Part shown: positions 9,430 through 63,860 of the stretch, one piece after another
Layout: each line of letters opens with the position of its first letter
Position numbering within the stretch: position 1 is the first letter of the stretch
Origin: Lysinibacillus pakistanensis
GTDB lineage: Bacteria > Bacillota > Bacilli > Bacillales_A > Planococcaceae
DNA: 64,000 nt
Direction of reading: 5' to 3'
Assembly: GCF_030123245.1 (NCBI RefSeq)
Contig: NZ_CP126101.1
Span: 1,858,501-1,922,500 of the forward strand
The notes under the pieces: generated by a model
Database searches by the model: none
The model's input: only the letters and a program-made list of their open reading frames with translations
Told to the model about the DNA's origin: nothing
Translations under genes and position numbers: made by a program

Positions 9430-10254
9430 ATGAAGCAGGAAATGAGAATAGTAAAATATGATGCACAATTAAAGATTGAGGCCTATCATTTTAAGGGAAT
9501 TATGCAAAAATTCCCTAATCATTTTCATGAATATTATGTGATTGGGTTTATAGAAAGTGGTAGACGACTTTTATCCTGCAAATCTAAGGAATATATCATT
9601 GAACCGGGAGATTTGTTGTTATTTAATCCCCGTGACAATCATGCTTGCGAGCAAATTGATGGTAAAACATTGGATTATCGCTGTATAAATATCCAACCTG
9701 AAGTGATGAGAAGGGCTGTCTTTGCTATTACAGGAGAAGAGCTACTACCATATTTTACTCCCTCAGTACTTTTTCATAATGAATTGGTAGTTGTACTTCA
9801 GGATCTACATCAGATGCTTATGCAGGAAGAAGGGTGCTTTAGAAAAGAGGAAGTTTTTTATTTTCTTTTGGAACAGCTAATTGAAGAATATACGAAGCAG
9901 GGAATATCAACAAGTATTTCAGAGCAAAACACTAAAATAACAGCAATCTGTGAATTTTTAGAAGAAAGTTACATGAAAAATATTACACTAGAGGACCTAT
10001 GTAATCTAACAGGATTGAGTAAATACTATTTGCTTCGATCTTTTACCAAGCAAATGGGTATCTCTCCATACAGTTATTTGGAAACTATAAGAATAGATAA
10101 GGCTAAAAAGATGCTAGAGCATGGAGTACTACCAATAGACGTGGCATTTAAGACAGGGTTTACTGATCAAAGTCATTTTTCTAACTTTTTCAAGAAGTTT
10201 ATAGGGCTTACGCCAAAACAGTATATGAATATTTTTAAGGATGTACGGAACTAA
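9430..10254 (+). CDS. AraC family transcriptional regulator
   Basis: A 274-residue regulator. Residues about 15-100 form an AraC-type cupin (NHFHEYYVIGFIESGRR, EPGDLLLFNPRDNHACEQ). The C-terminal ~100 residues hold two helix-turn-helix motifs (LEDLCNLTGLSKYYLLRSFT, and IDVAFKTGFTDQSHFSNFF followed by the family-typical GLTPKQY). CGGAGG precedes the ATG. The EamA transporter begins 17 bases downstream on the same strand, so this regulator probably controls that exporter in response to a small molecule. Confidence 0.9.
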   Translation: MKQEMRIVKYDAQLKIEAYHFKGIMQKFPNHFHEYYVIGFIESGRRLLSCKSKEYIIEPGDLLLFNPRDNHACEQIDGKTLDYRCINIQPEVMRRAVFAITGEELLPYFTPSVLFHNELVVVLQDLHQMLMQEEGCFRKEEVFYFLLEQLIEEYTKQGISTSISEQNTKITAICEFLEESYMKNITLEDLCNLTGLSKYYLLRSFTKQMGISPYSYLETIRIDKAKKMLEHGVLPIDVAFKTGFTDQSHFSNFFKKFIGLTPKQYMNIFKDVRN

Positions 10255-10271
10255 TCATTGAAAGGATTTAT

Positions 10272-11174
10272 ATGGATACAAAAACAAAGATTAACGGACA
10301 TTTTTTAGCAGTAATCACAATTTTTATTTGGGGTACAACCTTCATATCAACTAAGATCTTATTAGATGCAATTTCACCTATTGAAATCTTATTTTTGAGA
10401 TTTATCATTGGTTTCCTTGTTCTGCTCCTTGTTTATCCTCACTGGTTTAGTGTGAAAGAAAAAAAACAGGAACTATATTTTGCAGGAGCAGGGTTATGTG
10501 GTGTTACATTATATTATTTACTCGAAAATATAGCACTAACTTATACCTTTGCATCCAATGTAGGTGTCATTATTTCAATAGCACCTTTTTTTACTGCTTT
10601 CCTTGCACATTTATTTTTGAATGGTGAGAAATTAAGATTACAGTTTTTGATTGGTTTTGTAGTTGCACTAGTTGGTATTTTCTTTATTAGCTACAATGGA
10701 AGTAGCAACTTAAAACTAAATCCGTTGGGAGATATACTAGCTGTTTTAGCTGCGGCAGTATGGGCTATCTATTCTATACTGACCAAGAAAATTAGTGAGT
10801 TTCAGTATAATACGATTCAAACAACACGAAGAATTTTTTTCTATGGGTTAATTTTTATGATACCTGCATTATTTATTGTTGGGTTTAAACCAAATATAAA
10901 TCAATTGATGCAACCAACTAATCTATTAAATATCCTATTTTTAGGGGTAGGAGCATCCGCACTTTGTTTTGTAACATGGAATTCTGCAGTAAAAATATTG
11001 GGTGCAATTAAAACTAGTGTTTATATCTATATGGTTCCCGTAATAACCGTTATTACTTCAGTACTTGTACTGAATGAAAGAATTACAGGATTCGCTATGA
11101 CTGGAATCATACTTACTCTAATAGGATTATTTATTTCTGAGAGTAAGGCTATGCAAAACAAACGTAGTGATTAG
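10272..11174 (+). CDS. EamA/DMT family transporter
   Basis: A 300-residue drug/metabolite transporter of the ten-helix EamA type: two repeated five-helix halves, the first with IWGTTFISTKILLD and FLRFIIGF, the second with LGDILAVLAAAVWAIYSILT and ITVITSVLVLNERIT. AAAGGA precedes the ATG. It directly follows the AraC gene (17-base gap), forming a likely two-gene unit. Substrate unknown; such proteins usually export amino acids or related metabolites. Confidence 0.9.
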   Translation: MDTKTKINGHFLAVITIFIWGTTFISTKILLDAISPIEILFLRFIIGFLVLLLVYPHWFSVKEKKQELYFAGAGLCGVTLYYLLENIALTYTFASNVGVIISIAPFFTAFLAHLFLNGEKLRLQFLIGFVVALVGIFFISYNGSSNLKLNPLGDILAVLAAAVWAIYSILTKKISEFQYNTIQTTRRIFFYGLIFMIPALFIVGFKPNINQLMQPTNLLNILFLGVGASALCFVTWNSAVKILGAIKTSVYIYMVPVITVITSVLVLNERITGFAMTGIILTLIGLFISESKAMQNKRSD

Positions 11175-11239
11175 ATCCTTAACTGGTGGCGGATTTTATG
11201 AAGGTAGGGGAAAGTGAAGTTTCATAATAGTACACCCTC

Positions 11240-35880: not shown

Positions 35881-36016
35881 ATTATAGAGAGACAGACGAG
35901 AAACTGAGACCAACACGAGGGTGGTCACGAAGGCGTTGTCACAGGACGTGACGCACTTAGCCTTCGTTCCTCCAGCGAAGGAAGCGGCTCGTCGCTCGCC
36001 CACTGAAGCTTTGCTC
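35881..36016. other. GC-richer structured leader of the tandem array
   Basis: Noticeably richer in G and C than the surroundings. ACGAAGGC (35927-35934) pairs with GCCTTCGT (35960-35967), with an inner GTCAC (35938-35942) / GTGAC (35948-35952). It lies between the IS3 right end and the repeats. Origin unknown. Confidence 0.45.
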
Positions 36017-36376
36017 TGTGCGAAAGCGAAGCGACAGCAACAAATGTTTTAACTGTGCGAAAGCGAAGCGACAGCAACAAATGTTTTAACTGTACGAAAG
36101 CGAAGCGACAGCAACAAATGTTTTAACTGTGCGAAAGCGAAGCGACAGCAACAAATGTTTTAACTGTGCGAAAGCGAAGCGACAGCAACAAATGTTTTAA
36201 CTGTGCGAAAGCGAAGCGACAGCAACAAATGTTTTAACTGTGCGAAAGCGAAGCGACAACAACAAATGTTTTAACTGTGCGAAAGCGAAGCGACAGCAAC
36301 AAATGTTTTAACTGTGCGAAAGCGAAGCGACAGCAACAAATGTTTTAACTGTGCGAAAGCGAAGCGACAGCAACAA
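36017..36376 (+). repeat. ten near-identical 37-bp tandem repeats
   Basis: Units begin TGTGCGAAAGCGAAGCGACA and continue GCAACAAATGTTTTAAC; starts fall at 36017 plus multiples of 37. Only single changes are seen (TGTACGAAAG in the third unit, GACAAC in the seventh). The 26-base core is the same as in the elements at 45.0, 47.6 and 63.8 kb. Spacers are all the same 11 bases, so this is not a CRISPR array. Confidence 0.95.
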
Positions 36377-36462
36377 AGCGAGTAGCCTGGAACGGAAATC
36401 AGCTTTATTTTGACTAAATATTCACAATGAGTCCCTTGACCATTTAGTTTTTCAACACTATG

Positions 36463-36507: not shown

Positions 36508-36598
36508 CTTACATAGTAAGCCCGTATTCAAATAACGCATATAAATAACCAGGCACCTCCGGTACGATAGACGTATCAATTAAAGGGGGTGCTTCTTT

Positions 36599-36793
36599 AT
36601 GTCAACTACTAAACTAACAATCGTCCCTGTGACACTGGATCCCATCACGGACAAGTATTCTTTTATCAATTCAACGCAAGTTTCCTCTGAACCAAGCTGT
36701 ATCATTAAAACAATTGATATTGAAATCTCCTTCTTCAATGGCGTAGATGAGCGCATCATCCAAATGATCATGAAGGAGCTGAATAAACAATGA
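36599..36793 (+). CDS. IS66 accessory protein (TnpA position)
   Basis: A 64-residue protein in the first position of IS66 elements. It lacks the clear HTH of longer TnpA proteins, so it is a short version. GGGGG lies upstream of the ATG. Its stop overlaps the start of tnpB (ATGA). Confidence 0.7.
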   Translation: MSTTKLTIVPVTLDPITDKYSFINSTQVSSEPSCIIKTIDIEISFFNGVDERIIQMIMKELNKQ

Positions 36794-37143
36794 AGCATGA
36801 TTTTACGAGTGTGCAAAACATCTATATCATCTGTGGCAAGACGGATATGCGAAAAGGCATTGATGGTCTCGCTACACTTATTCAGGATTCTTTTGAACTG
36901 GACCCCTATAGCGATTCCATTTTCTTATTTTCTGGAACGAGCAAAGACCGTTATAAATGTTTGTACTTTGATGGAGATGGCTTCGCTATGCTTTATAAAC
37001 GATTAGATAATGGGAAACTGCAATGGCCAAAAGATGAAAAGGAAGTGCGTAACCTTTCTCAACAGGAGCTTCGCTGGCTCTTAGAAGGATTATCGCTTCA
37101 GCAGCCAAAGGCAATTTCGAAATCTGCAACAGGTGTCTTTTAA
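36790..37143 (+). CDS. tnpB: IS66 family accessory protein TnpB
   Basis: A 117-residue IS66 Orf2 protein with the hallmark YIICGKTDMRKGIDGLATLI, then KCLYFDGDGFAMLYKRLDNG and WPKDEKEVRNLS. Full family length. Needed together with the other proteins for transposition. Translationally coupled to the preceding gene. Confidence 0.95.
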   Translation: MKHDFTSVQNIYIICGKTDMRKGIDGLATLIQDSFELDPYSDSIFLFSGTSKDRYKCLYFDGDGFAMLYKRLDNGKLQWPKDEKEVRNLSQQELRWLLEGLSLQQPKAISKSATGVF

Positions 37144-37193
37144 ATCGATTCACCTAAGTGGTATAATCATCCATAACTTATACTAAACGAAAT

Positions 37194-38755
37194 GTGGTGA
37201 ATGATTTGACTAATGCTTCTCCTAAGCAAGAAAACCAAAATGAACGATTAATTCGAATGCTTGAGCAACAATTAGCTCAGTCAAATCGACAAATCGAAGC
37301 ATTGACTGAACAAGTTCGCCAATTAACCAAGGCTTTATATGGTTCAAAATCGGAAAAATCAAAGTATCAAGCACCAGACGGACAAGGCTCTTTATTCGAT
37401 GACGATCCGTCTTTTAGCGAATCTGAGCAGACAGAAGAACAAAGCACGCCAACTGTTACGTATATCGTTGAGCGTAAACTACATAAGAAAAAACGGAATG
37501 ATTCTTTTCATGATGGGATTGAAATAGAAAAAATTCACCATCATCCCACCAATACACAATGCGACTGTTGCCTTGGCCAAATGACTGAAGCCGGTACAAC
37601 TATAGCGCGTGAAGAAGCAAAATTCATTCCAGCAATAATGATGCGCATCCAGCATATTGAACATGCCTACGAGTGCAAGCACTGTAAAATGGATGCCACA
37701 CAAAAAGCACAAATGAAACGTGGAAAAGCCCCACAAGCTGCCATTCAGCGAAGCATTGCGGGACCTACCGTTCTAGCAAAACTCATCTATGATAAGTTCA
37801 TCCAATACTTGCCTCTTTACCGTCAGGTAAAGGAGTGGGAACGATACGGCCTGCTTACGAATGATAAGAACTTATCAAACTGGGTGATCCGTTCAGCTGA
37901 AGATTGGCTTCTACCGGTTTATGAACAGATGAAGCAGACATTAACAGCAAAATCTGTTCTACATGTGGATGAAACCTATGCGCAAATAATCAAACGTTCA
38001 GACGGAAAATCCGGTCAATCGAATGCCTACAATTGGGTGTTCCGCAGCGTGCCAAGCCAAGGACCGATTATCGTTCTTTTTCATAGTGCATTATCGAGAA
38101 GTCGTTCTATACTAATAGAATTTACAAAAGGCTTTAAAGGAACGGTGATTTGTGATGGCTACTCGGCATACGGCAATCTTCCTGATGTCACGTTCGCTAA
38201 CTGTTGGGCGCATGTGCGACGATATTGGCTAAAAGCCGATAGCAAAAACGGGCAAATTGGCGTGGATTTCTGTGACCAACTGTATCGCCTAGAACGTCAA
38301 TTTAAGCATCTTCCACCAGGTAAACGCCGAAAATCACGGCAAAAATATTCAAAGCCGATTGTAGAGAAATTCTTAAAATGGTGGATGAATCGCCTTTCTT
38401 CGGAAAAAATGCCTTAGCTAAAGCTGCCGAATACACATTAAATCGAATACATGGATTAAAAGCTTTTCTGTTCGATGGCCGAATTGAGATGGATAATAAT
38501 CCAGCTGAAAATGCGATTCGCCCAAATGTGATTGGTCGCAAGAACTGGCTATTTTCTGTTAGTGAAGCTGGTGCTAAAGCAAATGCCATCTGTTTGAGTT
38601 TAGCAGAAACAGCCAAAACAAACGGCATTGATTTTTATCAGTACCTTGTGAAGCTATTAACGGAGCTACCAAATTTACCGATTCAACAACAGCCAGAGAT
38701 CTTACAAGATTACATGCCTTGGTCAAAAAATATCCAAGCCACATGTTCAAAATAG
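37194..38755 (+). pseudogene. tnpC: IS66 transposase TnpC, interrupted by a frameshift
   Basis: Two overlapping frames together give the ~520 residues of a normal IS66 transposase. The first (37194-38417) has an N-terminal leucine-zipper-like helix, a zinc-finger CDCCLGQM..CKHC, and the DDE Asp in LHVDETYAQI and CDGYSAYGNL. The second (to 38755) has the C-terminus EMDNNPAENAIRP with the DDE Glu. The shift lies in TTCTTAAAATGG at about 38376: one extra A would restore the frame. Either a disabling deletion or a -1 slip on AAAA. Confidence 0.88.
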
Positions 38756-38990
38756 CCAGCTATCTGAAAAAAACTCAGATAGCTGGCCATTCGTCGTGCG
38801 TACCGAGAAGGTGCGCTTATTTTTGTATTTCGGGCTTACCTTACATATCTCAATATATTACTTTCCAATTAAGATCTCCTTCTCAAACCTGTGATGCTAA
38901 AACAGTCGCGGTTTAGCAATATTAAATCTGCAATATCAGAAACCTCCTCGCCTTACTTTCTGGCAAGATTCTCTTAGTAAAATCTGATTT

Positions 38991-39036
38991 ATGGATTGCA
39001 TCATTGCTGTATTTTTGGACATTTATCTTCAATCCA
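38991..39036 (+). promoter_or_regulatory. candidate MocR operator upstream of the split-barrel/SHMT unit
   Basis: Three boxes: ATGGATTG (38991-38998), TTGGACAT (39015-39022) and inverted CAATCCA (39030-39036). Offsets from the first box are 24 and 39 bases. The same three boxes with offsets 23 and 38 occur before the YggS-like gene (41307-41352). The direct-plus-inverted layout is what MocR-type regulators such as PdxR bind. Confidence 0.7.
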
Positions 39037-39079
39037 AAGGCTGATAGACTTACAGAATACTTGATTAGGAGTGATAACA

Positions 39080-39607
39080 ATGATGGATGTACGCTACAAA
39101 ATTAGAGAAGTATTAGATATGAACAAGATCGATGCATTTTTAAAGCATGCTCGTATTGGGCATCTTGGAATGGTTGATGGCCAGCAACCGTATGTAGTTC
39201 CGCTGAATTTTGTTTGGTCGAATGGAAATATTTATTTTCATGGTGCTGGTGGTGGGCGAAGAAATAAAGTGATTCATGAGAATTCGGAAGTTTGTTTTAC
39301 TGTATGTGAGGAATATGGAACAATCACTAATCCTGTACCTGCCAAAACAGATACGGCATATATGAGTGTCATGATTTTTGGCGAGGCAAAGCCTGTTGTC
39401 AATTTAGATGAAGCTACATATATGCTGCAAGAGATGATTGATAAATATGTACCTGGGTACTATAAACGCCCATTGTCCAAACAACATGTAGAGAAATACC
39501 AATCTGCAGTATTTGGTGGTTCTGTACAAGTCTACAGAATTGATCCAAAACATATAAGCGCAAAAGAAAATCCGATTGAGGAAGGGAAAATGTTCCAAAC
39601 TGAATAA
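39080..39607 (+). CDS. pyridoxamine 5'-phosphate oxidase-like FMN split-barrel protein, copy 2
   Basis: A 175-residue split-barrel flavoprotein, paralogue of the one at 35092-35646: [63 protein letters not shown] 39080 is chosen because TAGGAG is spaced 8 bases before it; the GTG at 39071 overlaps that site. First gene of a unit with the SHMT-like and MazG-like genes. Its place among PLP-related genes suggests a B6-vitamer or amine oxidase role, but this is inference. Confidence 0.85.
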
Positions 39608-39651
39608 ATAAGAATGGAAAATTAAAAGTTCAAAAAGAAAGGAATTTGCAA

Positions 39652-40896
39652 ATGAGATATTTAGAGCAGCAAGACAGGGCGATAAGTAATGCCATCCAGC
39701 AAGAGCTTTCACGACAACGGGATAACATCGAGTTAATTGCCTCAGAGAATTTTGTCAGTCAGGCGGTTATGGAGGCATCTGGGACAATACTTACCAATAA
39801 GTACGCAGAGGGGTATCCAGGGCGTAGATTTTACGCAGGCTGTGAGCATGTAGATATTGTTGAAGAGCTTGCCATTCAGCGTGTGAAAGAGCTGTTTGGT
39901 GCTGAACATGCGAATGTACAGCCACATTCTGGGGCACAGGCCAATATGGCGGTTTATTATGCTTCTGTCAAATCAGGAGATACAATCTTGGGCATGGATT
40001 TATCGCATGGGGGACATCTCACACATGGTAGTCCCGTGAATTTTTCAGGAAAATTCTATAATTTTGTTCCTTATGGTGTAGATAAAGAAACAGGGCGAAT
40101 TGATTTTGATCATGTCCGAAAGCTAGCTCATCAGCATAGACCGCGTATGATTGTTGCTGGTGCCAGTGCCTATCCAAGAATGATTGATTTTGAGTTATTC
40201 GCTCAAATTGCGAACGAGGTTGGTGCCCTTTTCTTTGTGGATATGGCACATATTGCAGGGATTGTCGCTGCTGGGCTACATCCTAATCCTTTACCACATG
40301 CTCATTTTGTAACCACGACTACCCATAAAACGTTACGTGGACCAAGAGGGGGTATTGTTATGTGCCGTAAATCTTGGGCACAAGCAATTGATAAAGCTAT
40401 TTTCCCGGGATTACAGGGGGGGCCTCTTATGCATATCGTCGCCGCAAAAGCCATTGCGTTTGGAGAGGCACTAAATCCAGATTTTAAGAGATATATCAAG
40501 AACGTACTGGAAAATGCCAAAGTATTAGCGGATACATTTATAAGTGAAGGATTAACCGTTGTCTCAGGAGGAACAGATAATCATATTATCTTACTTGATT
40601 TGCGTACGGTTGGGCTTACTGGTAAAGAAGCTGAAGCAATACTCGATGAAGTGGGCATTACAGCAAATAAAAATACTATCCCTCATGATACAGCCAATCC
40701 ATTAGTTACTAGTGGGATTCGATTTGGTACGCCTGCAATTACAACTAGGGGATTGGGGCCAAAGGAAATGAAGGAAATTGCTCAATTTATTGCACTGGCC
40801 CTAAAAAATCCTAAGAATACAACGGTTAAAAATCAAATATTGGATAGTGTGAGAGAAATCACATCTCAATTTCCTTTATATGAAGGACTTAATTAA
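39652..40896 (+). CDS. serine hydroxymethyltransferase-family PLP enzyme, divergent paralogue
   Basis: A 414-residue fold-type I PLP enzyme, collinear with Gly[39 protein letters not shown], the lysine motif [14 protein letters not shown] (Lys226), [11 protein letters not shown] and [15 protein letters not shown]. Compared with canonical GlyA it has FYAGCEHVD in place of YYGGCEYVD, and SAYPRMIDF in place of SAYSGVVDW, both near the active site. Start ATG 39652, with GAAAGGA upstream. A housekeeping glyA would normally sit near upp/atp genes, so this is probably a second copy with altered substrate use (for example another hydroxymethyl acceptor or an aldolase). Confidence 0.88.
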
Positions 40897-40918
40897 AAAA
40901 TAGGCTGAGGAATAATAT

Positions 40919-41224
40919 ATGAATATTTCAAATATGCAAAGATATGTTAGACAATTTAGTGAGGAAAAAGGATTTACTGTCAATACAATTCAAACTAGAA
41001 TGCTATATTTAGTTACTGAGATTGGAGAGTTAGCTCAAGAAATTTTAAGTATTTCCTTTCAACCAACAGAGGAGAAGGTCCGACTAACAAAAGAAAATAT
41101 TGGCTTGGAGATGTATGACGTAATTTTTAATGTAGTAGATCTAGCCAATCAATTAGATATTGATCTAGAGGAAGCATTTCAAAAAAAGATGGAGATCAAT
41201 AAGTACAGAACTTGGTTTGAATAA
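40919..41224 (+). CDS. MazG-like nucleotide pyrophosphohydrolase family protein
   Basis: A 101-residue all-alpha MazG-like protein: RMLYLVTEIGELAQEIL (metal-binding EIGE), then LEMYDVIFNVVDLANQLDIDLEEAF (E..D) and a C-terminal KKMEINKYRTW typical of the family. TGAGGAA precedes the ATG, 22 bases after the SHMT-like stop. Why a nucleotide hydrolase sits in a PLP-linked unit is unclear. Confidence 0.85.
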   Translation: MNISNMQRYVRQFSEEKGFTVNTIQTRMLYLVTEIGELAQEILSISFQPTEEKVRLTKENIGLEMYDVIFNVVDLANQLDIDLEEAFQKKMEINKYRTWFE

Positions 41225-41240
41225 AGCTATATAATCTAAA

Positions 41241-41284
41241 AGCCACTACCCCTAATCGCACTAGAGGTGGTGGCTATTTTGTTT
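41241..41284 (+). terminator. terminator ending the split-barrel/SHMT/MazG unit
   Basis: AGCCACTACCCCTA (41241-41254) / TAGAGGTGGTGGCT (41262-41275), 14 pairs with two imperfect, then ATTTTGTTT. Confidence 0.8.
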
Positions 41285-41306
41285 AGGAGTCGTTTATAAA
41301 GGATTT

Positions 41307-41365
41307 ATGGATTGTCAAAAAATATATTTATGGATGTTTTTGTGCAATCCATAATAAGGTATGCT
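41307..41365 (+). promoter_or_regulatory. candidate MocR operator and promoter of the YggS-like/BenE unit
   Basis: ATGGATTG (41307-41314), ATGGATGT (41330-41337), inverted CAATCCAT (41345-41352), then a -10-like TATGCT at 41360-41365. No good -35 box stands 17 bases before it, as expected for a promoter needing an activator. Layout matches 38991-39036. Confidence 0.7.
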
Positions 41366-41407
41366 TAGTGCATTCATTACAAAATAAAAGCAAAGGGAGG
41401 AAACAAT

Positions 41408-42151
41408 ATGGTTCATTTAGTTGAGGACAATCTTACAACTGTGAGGAAGCAGATGGCATTAGCTTGCCAAGCCGTGGGTCGTAAGAATGAAGAGGTCAAA
41501 TTGTTACTGGCAACAAAAACGGTTCCCCTTGAAAAATTAAAGATTGCTATGGAGGCAGGTGAAATGTTGTTTGGTGAAAATAAAGCACAAGAACTTCGAG
41601 ACAAATTTCCACTTATGGAACAACATAACCAAGTAGAATGGCACTTTATCGGGCATTTGCAAACGAATAAAGTTAAATATGTTGTGAAGTATGTAACCTT
41701 GATTCATTCTGTTGATCGTTTGAAATTAGGACAGGCATTACATAATCAGCTTGTGAAAGAGAATAAAACGATGGATATTTTGGTACAGGTGAATACATCT
41801 CGTGAAACAAGTAAATTTGGTGTTTCACCAGAATTAGCATTGGAGCTAGTGGAACAATTATCCCAATTTGAAACATTGAATATAAAGGGGCTAATGACGA
41901 TTGGAAAATTGAATGCCACAAATAATGAAACTAGGCATTGCTTCCAATTACTAAAGCAACTTCAAACCCAAATACGTGCAAAAGAAATTCCTCGTGTTGA
42001 GATGGATATTTTATCAATGGGCATGTCTGGTGATTTCACTGTTGCCATTGAGGAGGGTGCTACGATCATAAGAGTAGGGACCAAAGTGTTTGGGCAACGC
42101 TATTTGCCAGATGAATACTATTGGAATGAAAATAAGTTACATGATGATTAA
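41408..42151 (+). CDS. YggS/YlmE-type PLP-binding protein (PLP homeostasis)
   Basis: A 247-residue alanine-racemase-like barrel without the second domain. PLP lysine K37 in LLLATKTVP, then GENKAQELRDKF, WHFIGHLQTNK, SKFGVSPE, and the phosphate-binding LSMGMSGDFTVAIEEGATIIRVGT. These proteins bind PLP and buffer its level. GGGAGGAAA precedes the ATG. First gene of a unit with BenE. The usual Bacillus copy (ylmE) sits beside cell-division genes, so this is probably an extra paralogue. Confidence 0.92.
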   Translation: MVHLVEDNLTTVRKQMALACQAVGRKNEEVKLLLATKTVPLEKLKIAMEAGEMLFGENKAQELRDKFPLMEQHNQVEWHFIGHLQTNKVKYVVKYVTLIHSVDRLKLGQALHNQLVKENKTMDILVQVNTSRETSKFGVSPELALELVEQLSQFETLNIKGLMTIGKLNATNNETRHCFQLLKQLQTQIRAKEIPRVEMDILSMGMSGDFTVAIEEGATIIRVGTKVFGQRYLPDEYYWNENKLHDD

Positions 42152-42167
42152 AAGAGGGGGAAAAGTC

Positions 42168-43388
42168 TTGAACGAAACACAAAATTCATGGCGTGTTCAT
42201 GATTTACTATCACCTACCATAGCTGCTTTTATATCTGTCATTGTCAACTACGGGGGTACTTTTATTCTTGTCTTTCAGGCTGCTAAGGTTGCTGGTCTTA
42301 GTCCAGAAATGACTGCATCTTGGATATGGTCAATTTCTATCGGGGTTGGAATAACTGGCATATGGTTAAGTTACCGCTACCGCGAACCAATTATTACAGC
42401 TTGGTCAACACCTGGTGTAGCATTTCTTGTTTCAGCATTGGCAGTTACCCCCTATGCGGAAGCGATAGGGGCTTATATGATTTCTGCTATGGGATTTATT
42501 ATTTTAGGATTAACAGGAATGTTCGAGCGTTTTGTCCGGCTTATTCCACCAGGCATTGCTTCTGGACTTCTTGCCGGTATATTATTACAGTTTGGTATTT
42601 CAGCATTTGGCGGAGCAAAAGTTGATCCTTTGCTTGTCATTATTCTATTTATTACGTATGTCATTTTAAGAAGATTTACATCTAGATATGCAATCGTAGG
42701 CATTTTGCTTACAGGATTAATTTATTTGATAAGTATGGGTCAGGCAGACTTTGGCAATATCAAATTAGCCCTTGCATCACCAGTATTTGTTGCACCAGAG
42801 TTTTCGCTTCATGCCTTATTAGGGGTTGCGCTGCCACTTTTTATTATTACTTTGACTGGTCAATATATGCCAGGGATGTTAGTACTGCGAAATGACGGAT
42901 TTAAAACGAGCGCAAATCCAATTTTGATCATTACAGGATTAGGCTCACTCCTAACAGCTCCATTTGGCTCTCACGCCTTTAATATAGCAGCTATTACCGC
43001 CGCAATTTGTACTGGAAAAGACGCTCACGAAGATTCAAGGAAACGTTATATTGCTGGTATCATCTGTGGTATTTTTTATATAATTGTTGGTATTTTTGGC
43101 GTCACTTTGGCTGCTTTGTTTTTAATTCTCCCTGCAACATTTATTGCTACACTAGCGGGCTTAGCATTGCTCGGTACAATAGGGAGTAGCCTTGCAAATG
43201 CCTTGATAAATCCCGAAGGACGTGAAACAGCACTAATTACATTTTTGGCTACAGCCGCAAATGTTACATTACTTGGAGTAGGAGGTGCGTTCTGGGGACT
43301 TGTAGCAGGGTTAGGCGCTCATTTATTGACAAATGGTCAGTTGCTAAAGAAACAACAAAATACGAATAGTGTGCAACAAACTAAATAA
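42168..43388 (+). CDS. BenE-family transporter
   Basis: A ~406-residue transporter with about 12 helices of the benzoate/H+ symporter (BenE) family: HDLLSPTIAAFISVIVNYGG, SIGVGITGIWLSYRYREPI, AWSTPGVAFL, and TGLGSLLTAPFGSHAFNIAA. The start is TTG 42168, with GAGGGGGA upstream; earlier ATGs overlap the YggS-like gene and lack sites. It follows that gene by 16 bases. No benzoate catabolic genes are nearby. Given the neighbours, its substrate may be a B6 vitamer or an amino-acid-related compound, which is inference. Confidence 0.88.
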   Translation: MNETQNSWRVHDLLSPTIAAFISVIVNYGGTFILVFQAAKVAGLSPEMTASWIWSISIGVGITGIWLSYRYREPIITAWSTPGVAFLVSALAVTPYAEAIGAYMISAMGFIILGLTGMFERFVRLIPPGIASGLLAGILLQFGISAFGGAKVDPLLVIILFITYVILRRFTSRYAIVGILLTGLIYLISMGQADFGNIKLALASPVFVAPEFSLHALLGVALPLFIITLTGQYMPGMLVLRNDGFKTSANPILIITGLGSLLTAPFGSHAFNIAAITAAICTGKDAHEDSRKRYIAGIICGIFYIIVGIFGVTLAALFLILPATFIATLAGLALLGTIGSSLANALINPEGRETALITFLATAANVTLLGVGGAFWGLVAGLGAHLLTNGQLLKKQQNTNSVQQTK

Positions 43389-43403
43389 TAAGAGACTTAA
43401 TAT

Positions 43404-43440
43404 AGGCCACCATCTAAAATAAAGTAAGATGGTGGCCTTC
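43404..43440. terminator. bidirectional terminator between BenE and MocR genes
   Basis: Perfect 12-bp stem AGGCCACCATCT (43404-43415) / AGATGGTGGCCT (43427-43438), followed by TCAATT, between convergent genes. Confidence 0.85.
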
Positions 43441-43442
43441 AA

Positions 43443-44873
43443 TTATAATAAGATCTTTGCCAATCGACTAATCCCTTCTTCAATCGCTGCCTCGTCTATT
43501 TTAGCAAATCCTAGTACCCATCCTTTACGATTGCTTTCCAAACAATATTTGCTAAGTGGATAAACACGGACTCCTTGTGTCAACGCTAGATTTGTCAGTT
43601 CCTCTTCTTCAAATGATTCTTTGGCTTCGAGAAGCATATGAAGACCGGTTTCAATACCGCTTAATTTAAAATGTTTACCGAGACCTGTTGCCATAATGGC
43701 CTTTGTCATAGCCTCATGTCTTCTGCGATAGACATTTCTAGCTCTCCTCATATGACGCATAAAATGACCATGTTCAATAAAATGGGAAAGCGTTAGTTGC
43801 TCCATAATTGGAAGATGGCGATAGGTTAAAGCTTGTACCTGTGCAAGCTGGCGAATAGCGTTTTTGGGGCCAACAACTGCAGAAATTCGTATACCAGGAG
43901 CCACCATTTTTGAAAAACTCATCATATACAATGTATGTTGGGGCTGCTGACTAAATAAAGTAGGAAGTGGGCCACCGCGATACCTAAATTCACCATCATA
44001 ATCATCTTCTACAATCCAAAATTGCTTTTGGGCAGCCAGTTGTAGCAATTGCTGTCTGCGAGGTTCTGACAAAATAACGCCGACTGCACACTGATGGGAA
44101 GGTGTAACAAAAGTAAGTTTTGATTGTGGATGAATGTGCTCAACTTGTAAGCCGTACTCGTCAACAGGAACAGGGACAACGTTCATACGCCGATATTTCA
44201 TTGTCATCCATGCAGCGGGAAATCCAGGGTCTTCAACAGAAACTGTTTCGCCTTCATGTAAAAGCGCCTGAGCAATTAAATCGATACTATGCTGTGCTCC
44301 TGAAGTTAAGATAATTTGATCAATATCAACATGAACTCCTCTTTCAAATGTCAAATATCGTTGAATCTGTTCACGTAGTGGTGTATAGCCATACGGATTG
44401 CCATATCCCCATGTATCTAATTCTGCAACCGCTGATGCCTGTAAAAAAGACTGCCTCCAAATTTTCCGAAAATGCTCGTCCAAGTATGGCTCATGGGGAC
44501 AAAAATCAATTTCAATATGTTGCTGTTCTGAACCTCTAAACCAATTGTTCAATTGATTAACAGCTGTGCTTATGTAAGGTATTTCTGGTGTGGATGGTCC
44601 TTGATGCATAGATTCTTCCTGTGTGCCAGCTTGATAGCCCCATTCACTTACCCTTGTTCCACCACGCCAATTTGTAACCGTGTATCCGCGGCTGAATAAC
44701 TCCTCATATACAATTTGGATGGTTGAGCGTGAAACACCAACTAATAAGGCAAGCTCTCTAGTTGGGGGTAGTAGCTCTCCAGGCGGCCATTTTCCTGTTG
44801 TAATATTATGAATGGCTTGGTCAAGCAATTGCTGCCATATAGGACTCTTATCCTCTCGATTAACTTTTAACAT
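43443..44873 (-). CDS. MocR-type regulator (GntR HTH fused to PLP-dependent aminotransferase domain)
   Basis: About 476 residues from ATG 44873. N-terminal GntR winged helix: SPIWQQLLDQAIHNITTGKW, LPPTRELALLVGVSRSTIQI. After a linker comes a fold-type I aminotransferase domain: YGNPYGYTPLREQIQRYL, TSGAQHSIDLIAQ, VEDPGFPAAW, EDDYDGEFRY, and the PLP lysine motif SFSKMVAPGIRI. Such regulators use PLP or its adducts to sense vitamin B6, GABA or amino acids. GGAAGTGG lies upstream. The longer TTG frame from 44900 is less likely. It is convergent with the YggS-BenE unit and probably controls both forward units and itself. Confidence 0.92.
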   Translation of the reverse strand: MLKVNREDKSPIWQQLLDQAIHNITTGKWPPGELLPPTRELALLVGVSRSTIQIVYEELFSRGYTVTNWRGGTRVSEWGYQAGTQEESMHQGPSTPEIPYISTAVNQLNNWFRGSEQQHIEIDFCPHEPYLDEHFRKIWRQSFLQASAVAELDTWGYGNPYGYTPLREQIQRYLTFERGVHVDIDQIILTSGAQHSIDLIAQALLHEGETVSVEDPGFPAAWMTMKYRRMNVVPVPVDEYGLQVEHIHPQSKLTFVTPSHQCAVGVILSEPRRQQLLQLAAQKQFWIVEDDYDGEFRYRGGPLPTLFSQQPQHTLYMMSFSKMVAPGIRISAVVGPKNAIRQLAQVQALTYRHLPIMEQLTLSHFIEHGHFMRHMRRARNVYRRRHEAMTKAIMATGLGKHFKLSGIETGLHMLLEAKESFEEEELTNLALTQGVRVYPLSKYCLESNRKGWVLGFAKIDEAAIEEGISRLAKILL

Positions 44874-44894: not shown

Positions 44895-45041
44895 AATCAA
44901 TTTTGCCTTGGCGTAATTGTTGCTGTCGCTTTGCTTTCGCTACAGAAAACATTTGTAGTTGCCGCTTTGCTTTCGCTACAGTAAAGAATTGTTGCTGTCG
45001 CTGCGCTTTCGCACAATAAAGATCTGCTGAATGAAGATAAA
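44895..45041 (-). repeat. modular repeat element copy upstream of the MocR gene
   Basis: Read on the minus strand: left end TTTATCTTCATTCAGCAGA (to 45041), three degenerate 26-base cores (TGTGCGAAAGCGCAGCGACA and TGTAGCGAAAGCAAAGCG variants), then ATTACGCCAAGGCAAAATT at the right end. It ends about 20 bases before the MocR start codon, so it lies in the leader of that gene and in the same orientation. Confidence 0.8.
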
Positions 45042-47548: not shown

Positions 47549-47748
47549 TTTATCTTGATTCAGCAGATCTTTATTGTGCGAAAGCGCAGCGACAGCAACA
47601 ATTCTTTACTGTGCGAAAGCAAAGCGGCAGCAACACGGTTTTATCTGTGCTAAAGCGCAGCGACAGCAACAGATTTTTCCTGTGCGAAAGCGCAGCGACA
47701 GCAACACGGGTTTATCTGTGCGAAAGCGCAGCGTCAGCAGCAACAACA
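47549..47748 (+). repeat. modular repeat element copy with five core units
   Basis: Left end TTTATCTTGATTCAGCAGA (47549-47567), then five 26-base cores (TGTGCGAAAGCGCAGCGACA...) starting about 47576, 47611, 47647, 47682 and 47718, with alternating 35/36-base periods and differing 9-10-base linkers. The right end is degenerate (CAGCAGCAACAACAACAACA) and the usual closing hairpin is not evident. Follows the rnpB terminator. Confidence 0.85.
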
Positions 47749-63751: not shown

Positions 63752-63860
63752 TTTATCTTCATCAGCAATTTTTTACTGTGCGAAAGCGAAGCGACAGCAA
63801 CAAATATTTTTTGTAACGAAAGCATAGAGGCAGCTACAATTACGCCAAGGCGAAATTGAT
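63752..63860 (+). repeat. modular repeat element copy inside the eut operon
   Basis: Begins right after the eutM stop with TTTATCTTCATCAGCA (63752), then two cores (TGTGCGAAAGCGAAGCGACA and the degenerate TGTAACGAAAGCATAGAGGC), then the closing ATTACGCCAAGGCGAAATTG. Same orientation as the operon. Confidence 0.85.

Follow-up and report, generated by a model that had tools for sequence, protein, structure and literature searches.

A conserved MocR-linked gene set with a BenE-family transporter in Lysinibacillus is a candidate second PdxR-type regulon

The window analysed here is a stretch of 64,000 nucleotides (G000:C1:1858501-1922500) of a 5.25 Mb Lysinibacillus genome, and it contains a group of six genes that includes a MocR-type regulator and a BenE-family transporter. 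Gene calls and the scores of Pfam and NCBIfam models confirmed the arrangement proposed by the first-pass annotation, in which two forward units are followed by a convergent regulator gene. The first unit encodes a pdxO-like flavin mononucleotide (FMN) split-barrel protein of the Pyridox_ox_2 family (39080..39607, plus strand; PF12900, 92.2 bits), a second serine hydroxymethyltransferase (SHMT), called SHMT2 here (39652..40896, plus strand; PF00464, 558 bits), and a small MazG-domain protein (40919..41224, plus strand; PF03819, 30.4 bits against a cut-off of 22). The second unit encodes a YggS/PLPBP-type protein that binds pyridoxal 5'-phosphate (PLP; 41408..42151, plus strand; TIGR00044, 198.9 bits) and the BenE-family transporter (about 42168..43388, plus strand, with an assumed TTG start; PF03594, 443.3 bits; TIGR00843, 389.1 bits against a cut-off of 203.4). 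The regulator gene occupies the minus strand (43443..44873), and its previously proposed start at 44873 was judged the best placement. Its product combines GntR and aminotransferase domains and exceeds the cut-off of the PdxR model NF052282 (400.3 against 320 bits). A hairpin followed by a T-run, read from the sequence at 41241..41275, is the likely terminator of unit 1; the terminator scan lists the minus strand alone near this position, and its count is not above that of shuffles. A second hairpin, also read from the sequence, lies between the convergent ends of the BenE and MocR genes (43405..43437).

The closest solved relative of the split-barrel protein by sequence is BH0577 (2hti). In Pfam the protein matched Pyridox_ox_2 and PNPOx_N only, with no match to a PdxH-specific model, and in NCBIfam only Nim models, far under their cut-offs. 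The BenE protein is the only one found in the genome and matches the benzoate/H+ symporter family over its full length. No relative of it was found by sequence in the PDB, and its predicted structure had a mean predicted local distance difference test (pLDDT) score of 39.0, too low for use.

Each forward unit is preceded by a three-box operator on the plus strand. Operator 1 (38988..39039), upstream of unit 1, consists of TTTATGGATTG, TTTTTGGACA and inverted CAATCCAAAG; operator 2 (41304..41354), upstream of unit 2, consists of TTTATGGATTG, TTTATGGATG and inverted CAATCCATAA. The shared first box starts at 38988 and 41304, the second direct box begins 24 or 23 bases further on, and the inverted CAATCC box lies 18 bases past the second direct box. 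A single box is weak evidence, with eight one-mismatch matches across the window compared with a mean of 3.5, a count of eight being reached by 1 of 100 shuffles. On a composite built on the boxes of site 2 of the window itself, site 1 scored 26, and the maximum of 20 whole-window dinucleotide shuffles was 23. The strict pattern occurs at exactly two sites genome-wide, both at the two units of the window, and is present in 11 of 32 Lysinibacillus genomes. A looser pattern found 60 sites in 41 of the 42 genomes in which a close MocR relative occurs and none in a reversed-pattern control, which is a better test of the operator than the shuffle scores. Fifty-two of these sites are within MocR stretches, two more are on the same contig by coordinates (about 11 kb away in G064 and just past the stretch in G078), and six are unlinked. 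Of the unlinked sites, two precede a HemL paralogue, two a split-barrel gene and one a BenE gene; the unlinked HemL gene of G010 (L098 3304-4589), which stands under the operator, is broken into two frames. All scanned stretches together hold 89 operator instances, some of which overlap, and the first downstream gene belongs to a regulon family in 74 of them (split-barrel 39, BenE 11, YggS 10, HemL 5, SHMT2 5, SerA 3 and PdxS 1). Since the same operator precedes each unit and, in other genomes, stands before genes of the same families, one MocR-linked regulon probably spans both units, and co-regulation is the well-supported step of the interpretation.

Relatives of the window MocR at E <= 1e-90 were found in 18 of 61 genomes, its own included, and in 16 of the 32 Lysinibacillus genomes. 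A set of 59 named loci was retrieved for comparison, which come from Lysinibacillus, Paenibacillus, Brevibacillus, Pseudogracilibacillus, Sporosarcina, Virgibacillus, Cohnella, Fontibacillus and Bacillus-labelled strains. The comparison covers 66 loci outside the window, after removal of the distant L037 and of nine repeats from the same genomes; L086 and L092 belong to one genome. Split-barrel genes are present at 47 of these loci, YggS at 32, BenE at 30, SHMT2 at 14 and MazG at 6. One or more of the five partner families occur at 64 of the 66 loci and all five at two, so that the complete set of six genes is rare. The neighbourhood is conserved outside the window genome in several genera. 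The locus is beyond chance, because 64 of the 66 relatives' loci hold a partner family and both units share an operator. Among the 32 Lysinibacillus genomes, BenE is found in 13 of the 16 with the MocR and in 2 of the 16 without it (Fisher p 2.4e-4). HemL, SerA, PdxS, SerC and ArgD are further recurring neighbours, for each of which NCBIfam confirmed one representative. At the closest relative, L021, a PhzF-family gene (10238-11188) stands between the MocR gene and the next gene.

PdxR has been described from B. clausii, Listeria and others. The window genome contains a second PdxR-type regulator (G000:C1:28949-30427; L101, stretch to 31921), which is divergent from the single pdxST of the genome, scores 614.5 bits on NF052282 and is near the solved chain 7pq9. 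The two regulators share their architecture and both exceed the cut-off of the model, but they are 30% identical, and the window MocR is away from pdxST and has other targets. The PdxR label of the window MocR does not indicate orthology, because the pdxST-side regulator is only 30% identical to it and scores higher (614.5 against 400.3 bits), and the window protein as PdxR orthologue was rejected. By sequence, the MocR of the window is of the PdxR type and is not the pdxST-linked PdxR. A Ser-Phe/Tyr-Ser-Lys motif is conserved in all 70 rows of the MocR cluster. The absence of pdxST stated in the first-pass annotation holds for the window but not for the genome, which has the pdxST described above with its own regulator, nor for pdxS at the loci of relatives. 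There, pdxS is present at nine MocR loci (L048, L061, L062, L063, L067, L074, L078, L087 and L092), and PdxT was not found in the stretches examined around these copies; the L048 copy is split. Operator-like sites precede pdxS at four of the nine loci and score 22-28, where shuffles reach at most 20; these are suggestive values, being based on plain base shuffles and boxes from window site 2. A link to PLP is supported by pdxS at the loci of relatives, by the score of the PdxR model and by the earlier prediction in PMC5320631, and the YggS and pdxO-like genes agree with it.

The enzymes encoded at the MocR loci are almost always additional copies. SHMT was additional to another genomic copy in 12 of 12 genomes searched (pieces in L070 and L081, as well as L052 and L062, left out), HemL in 10 of 10 (three of 13 loci left out), and SerA in 6 of 6 (pieces in L051 and L064, as well as L052, L062, L082 and L089, left out). 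SerC was an extra copy in five of six genomes searched, one of the five being partial. For PdxS this was the case in six of eight genomes, L062 having been left out, and the locus PdxS was broken in one of the six. The remaining two comprise one genome with only fragments elsewhere and one with none; in Virgibacillus (G096), the locus PdxS is the sole PdxS found in the genome.

SHMT2 is one of two SHMT copies in the window genome. The SHMT2 sequences from MocR loci (15 rows, 14 of them distinct) form a single clade with support of 100/100. A wider group of SHMTs labelled as regulon members is not one clade, since an SHMT of G067 without this label falls beside the rows of G073 and G083, which received this label without a MocR check and for which the operator was not found. 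SHMT2 of the window shares 64% identity with SHMT1 of its own genome and 78-85% with the Paenibacillus locus copies, a pattern suggestive of horizontal transfer. The window SHMT2 aligns without gaps over 390 residues to the Bacillus stearothermophilus SHMT (1kkj), which provides the numbering. Lys226, Glu53, His122, Asp197 and Arg357, which we take to be the catalytic and PLP-contacting residues of SHMT, are kept in all 15 rows, L125 included. The two proteins differ at two of three tetrahydrofolate positions: the window SHMT2 keeps Asn341 and has Phe60 and Leu351 instead of Tyr60 and Phe351. At position 351, 13 of the 14 locus copies have Leu and 22 of the 27 other sequences have Phe; Phe at position 60 occurs in 2 of 14 and 2 of 27, respectively. 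Asn341, Tyr60 and Phe351 are named for tetrahydrofolate binding in the title of Pai 2009, as cited in the reference list of PMC3697235.

The first-pass annotation regarded the gene combination as undescribed. This claim fails, because Suvorova and Rodionov (2016; PMC5320631) had predicted the same content: their PdxR regulons include pdxO, GlyA-family SHMT, COG325 (YggS) and ArgD-family aminotransferases, BenE is listed as a 'putative pyridoxine transporter', and the Conclusions give a connection between BenE and GlyA. The window contains pdxO, GlyA SHMT, COG325 and BenE together with a MocR regulator and a shared operator before each unit; the ArgD-family aminotransferase is shared with the loci of relatives. 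The direct-direct-inverted arrangement of the window operators matches the motif structure that the same study gives as the commonest among MocR regulators, and PhzF-related genes are also named there in PLP regulons. The locus is real and conserved, but it belongs to a regulon type predicted in 2016. The presence of two PdxR-type regulators in one genome and the pattern of extra copies differ from that description in the parts of it considered here, which do not name MazG, HemL, SerA or SerC as targets; the supplementary tables may list them. The new details are the shared operator and the spare-copy pattern, and the latter would surprise specialists if it were proved functional. A whole-word literature search for BenE with MocR or pyridoxal returned no title pointing to an experimental test, and passages of PMC9484086, the one further paper that contains both BenE and MocR, do not link them.

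Based on these observations, a model of the regulon can be proposed. We hold with moderate confidence that the locus is a second PLP-sensing PdxR-type MocR regulon, distinct from the PdxR at pdxST, which serves vitamin B6 (PLP) homeostasis and supplies spare PLP enzymes. The MocR protein may bind PLP through its aminotransferase-like domain, as its family and the conserved Lys motif indicate, and would bind the direct-direct-inverted operator before each unit, which was identified by comparative genomics. When PLP falls, it would most likely activate both units. Activation is proposed because the operators end about 60 bases or less before the start codons and the promoter scan lists no promoter there; this arrangement is compatible with an activator and does not prove one. 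Judged by their families, BenE may import a B6 vitamer, the split-barrel enzyme may oxidise pyridoxamine 5'-phosphate or pyridoxine 5'-phosphate towards PLP, and YggS may buffer PLP. SHMT2, and in relatives also HemL, SerC, SerA, ArgD and PdxS without PdxT, would provide PLP enzymes in reserve as well as serine/glycine synthesis. Most bacterial species have no B6 transporter identified so far (PMC9997740). With a PLP-type operator before it in many Bacillales, BenE is a concrete candidate, although its role as a B6 or amino-acid transporter is a prediction.

Several observations weigh against this model. The partners vary: SHMT2 is present at 2 of the 16 Lysinibacillus loci, and YggS and MazG at 5 of the 16. 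One of the 42 genomes that carry a close relative of the MocR lacks the operator, and at 15 of the 89 operator instances the first downstream gene is outside the regulon families (six) or absent (nine). The sixth unlinked site (G018) is probably spurious and neighbours a gene that by eye resembles uvrA. The MocR gene itself has no strong operator upstream (best score 20 on boxes from the window's own site 2, within shuffles), the strict operator was not found at the genome's own pdxST, and in the scoring of relatives' loci ArgD lacked an operator of its own. In L061, L062 and L067, a second MocR relative (63-64% identical) lies about 4-7 kb off with the strict operator adjoining, and the strict site there may belong to this second protein. 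Furthermore, a separate PdxR-type regulator already stands beside pdxST in the same genome, and we infer both activation, as opposed to repression, and the substrate of BenE.

The extra copies also allow a paralogue swap, in which the second MocR would sense PLP shortage or poisoning and turn on SHMT2, HemL, SerC, ArgD and a PdxS without PdxT, all of which would function when PLP is scarce or evade inhibitors. This would be similar to zinc-starved bacteria, which swap zinc proteins, and raises the question of whether a set of enzymes suited to low PLP or resistant to poisons is maintained in bacteria; we consider it a tentative possibility, on the unlikely side. Rather more doubtful is a dedicated response to PLP poisons, in which the regulon answers cycloserine- or gabaculine-like inhibitors, the extra SHMT, HemL, SerC and ArgD replace or out-titrate the inhibited enzymes, PdxS and the split-barrel protein replenish PLP, and the poison or a vitamer is transported by BenE. 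The gathering of second PLP-enzyme copies from several pathways speaks for such a response, as does the distinct SHMT2 clade with its altered folate-contact residue. Gabaculine, a dihydro-aminobenzoate, inhibits HemL, and gabaculine-resistant HemL carries a Met change. However, the motif DEVMTGFR is kept in the 10 of 13 HemL copies that were resolved, so the Met change is not seen in these ten, and SHMT2 keeps its checked catalytic residues; no resistance signature was found in these HemL rows or SHMT2 residues.

An amino-acid regulon appears still less probable. MocR proteins of the GabR type respond to amino acids together with PLP, and by this precedent the window MocR could sense an amino acid, with the gene products acting on serine, glycine or a hydroxy-amino acid that BenE transports. 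SHMT2, SerA and SerC are serine/glycine enzymes, which fits, whereas HemL, ArgD, PdxS and YggS suit PLP better than any single amino acid, and SHMT2 is missing from 11 of the 13 Lysinibacillus loci with BenE. The first-pass annotation had proposed a PLP- or amino-acid-responsive regulon in which BenE moves a B6 vitamer or an unusual amino acid on which the SHMT acts. The single MocR-linked regulon and the PLP link are retained from this proposal, but the chain from BenE to SHMT is unsupported, because SHMT2 is missing at 14 of the 16 Lysinibacillus loci with the regulator and BenE is kept at 11 of these 14; the conserved catalytic residues of SHMT2 argue in the same direction.

That the genes form a locus for benzoate or aromatic uptake, with BenE as a true benzoate symporter, is very improbable. 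The family label favours it, benE of Corynebacterium glutamicum changes together with catA and benK (PMC9484086), and one Sporosarcina locus has a gene of the mandelate-racemase/muconate-lactonizing superfamily, an IclR regulator and a DUF3237 gene near BenE. Unlike the benzoate/H+ symporters, the window BenE shares its regulon and operator with PLP genes, and none of the 50 unassigned genes lying up to 2.5 kb from BenE (at 26 of the 30 loci; four had none) matched a ring-hydroxylating or catechol dioxygenase family. A benzoate locus was rejected on the latter ground. The first-pass annotation had stated that benzoate genes are absent and had named an adjacent benzoate pathway in relatives as counter-evidence; no gene of those dioxygenase families appeared among these neighbours. 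A chance neighbourhood assembled by mobile elements, to which the insertion sequence (IS) ending about 150 bases upstream of operator 1 might point, was rejected as almost inconceivable, given the conservation of neighbourhood and operators over several genera and the unlinked operators before the same families.

The insertion sequence is an IS66-type element (36516-38839) with its transposase in two overlapping frames, and an imperfect end repeat marks its limit on the side of operator 1. The surroundings also contain a minisatellite with a unit of 35-37 bases, which forms arrays at 36016-36377, 44915-45012 and 47570-47739 and a lone copy at 63780. One array is directly upstream of the MocR gene, and another is 40 bases from a match to Bacillaceae-1 RNA (35910-35976).

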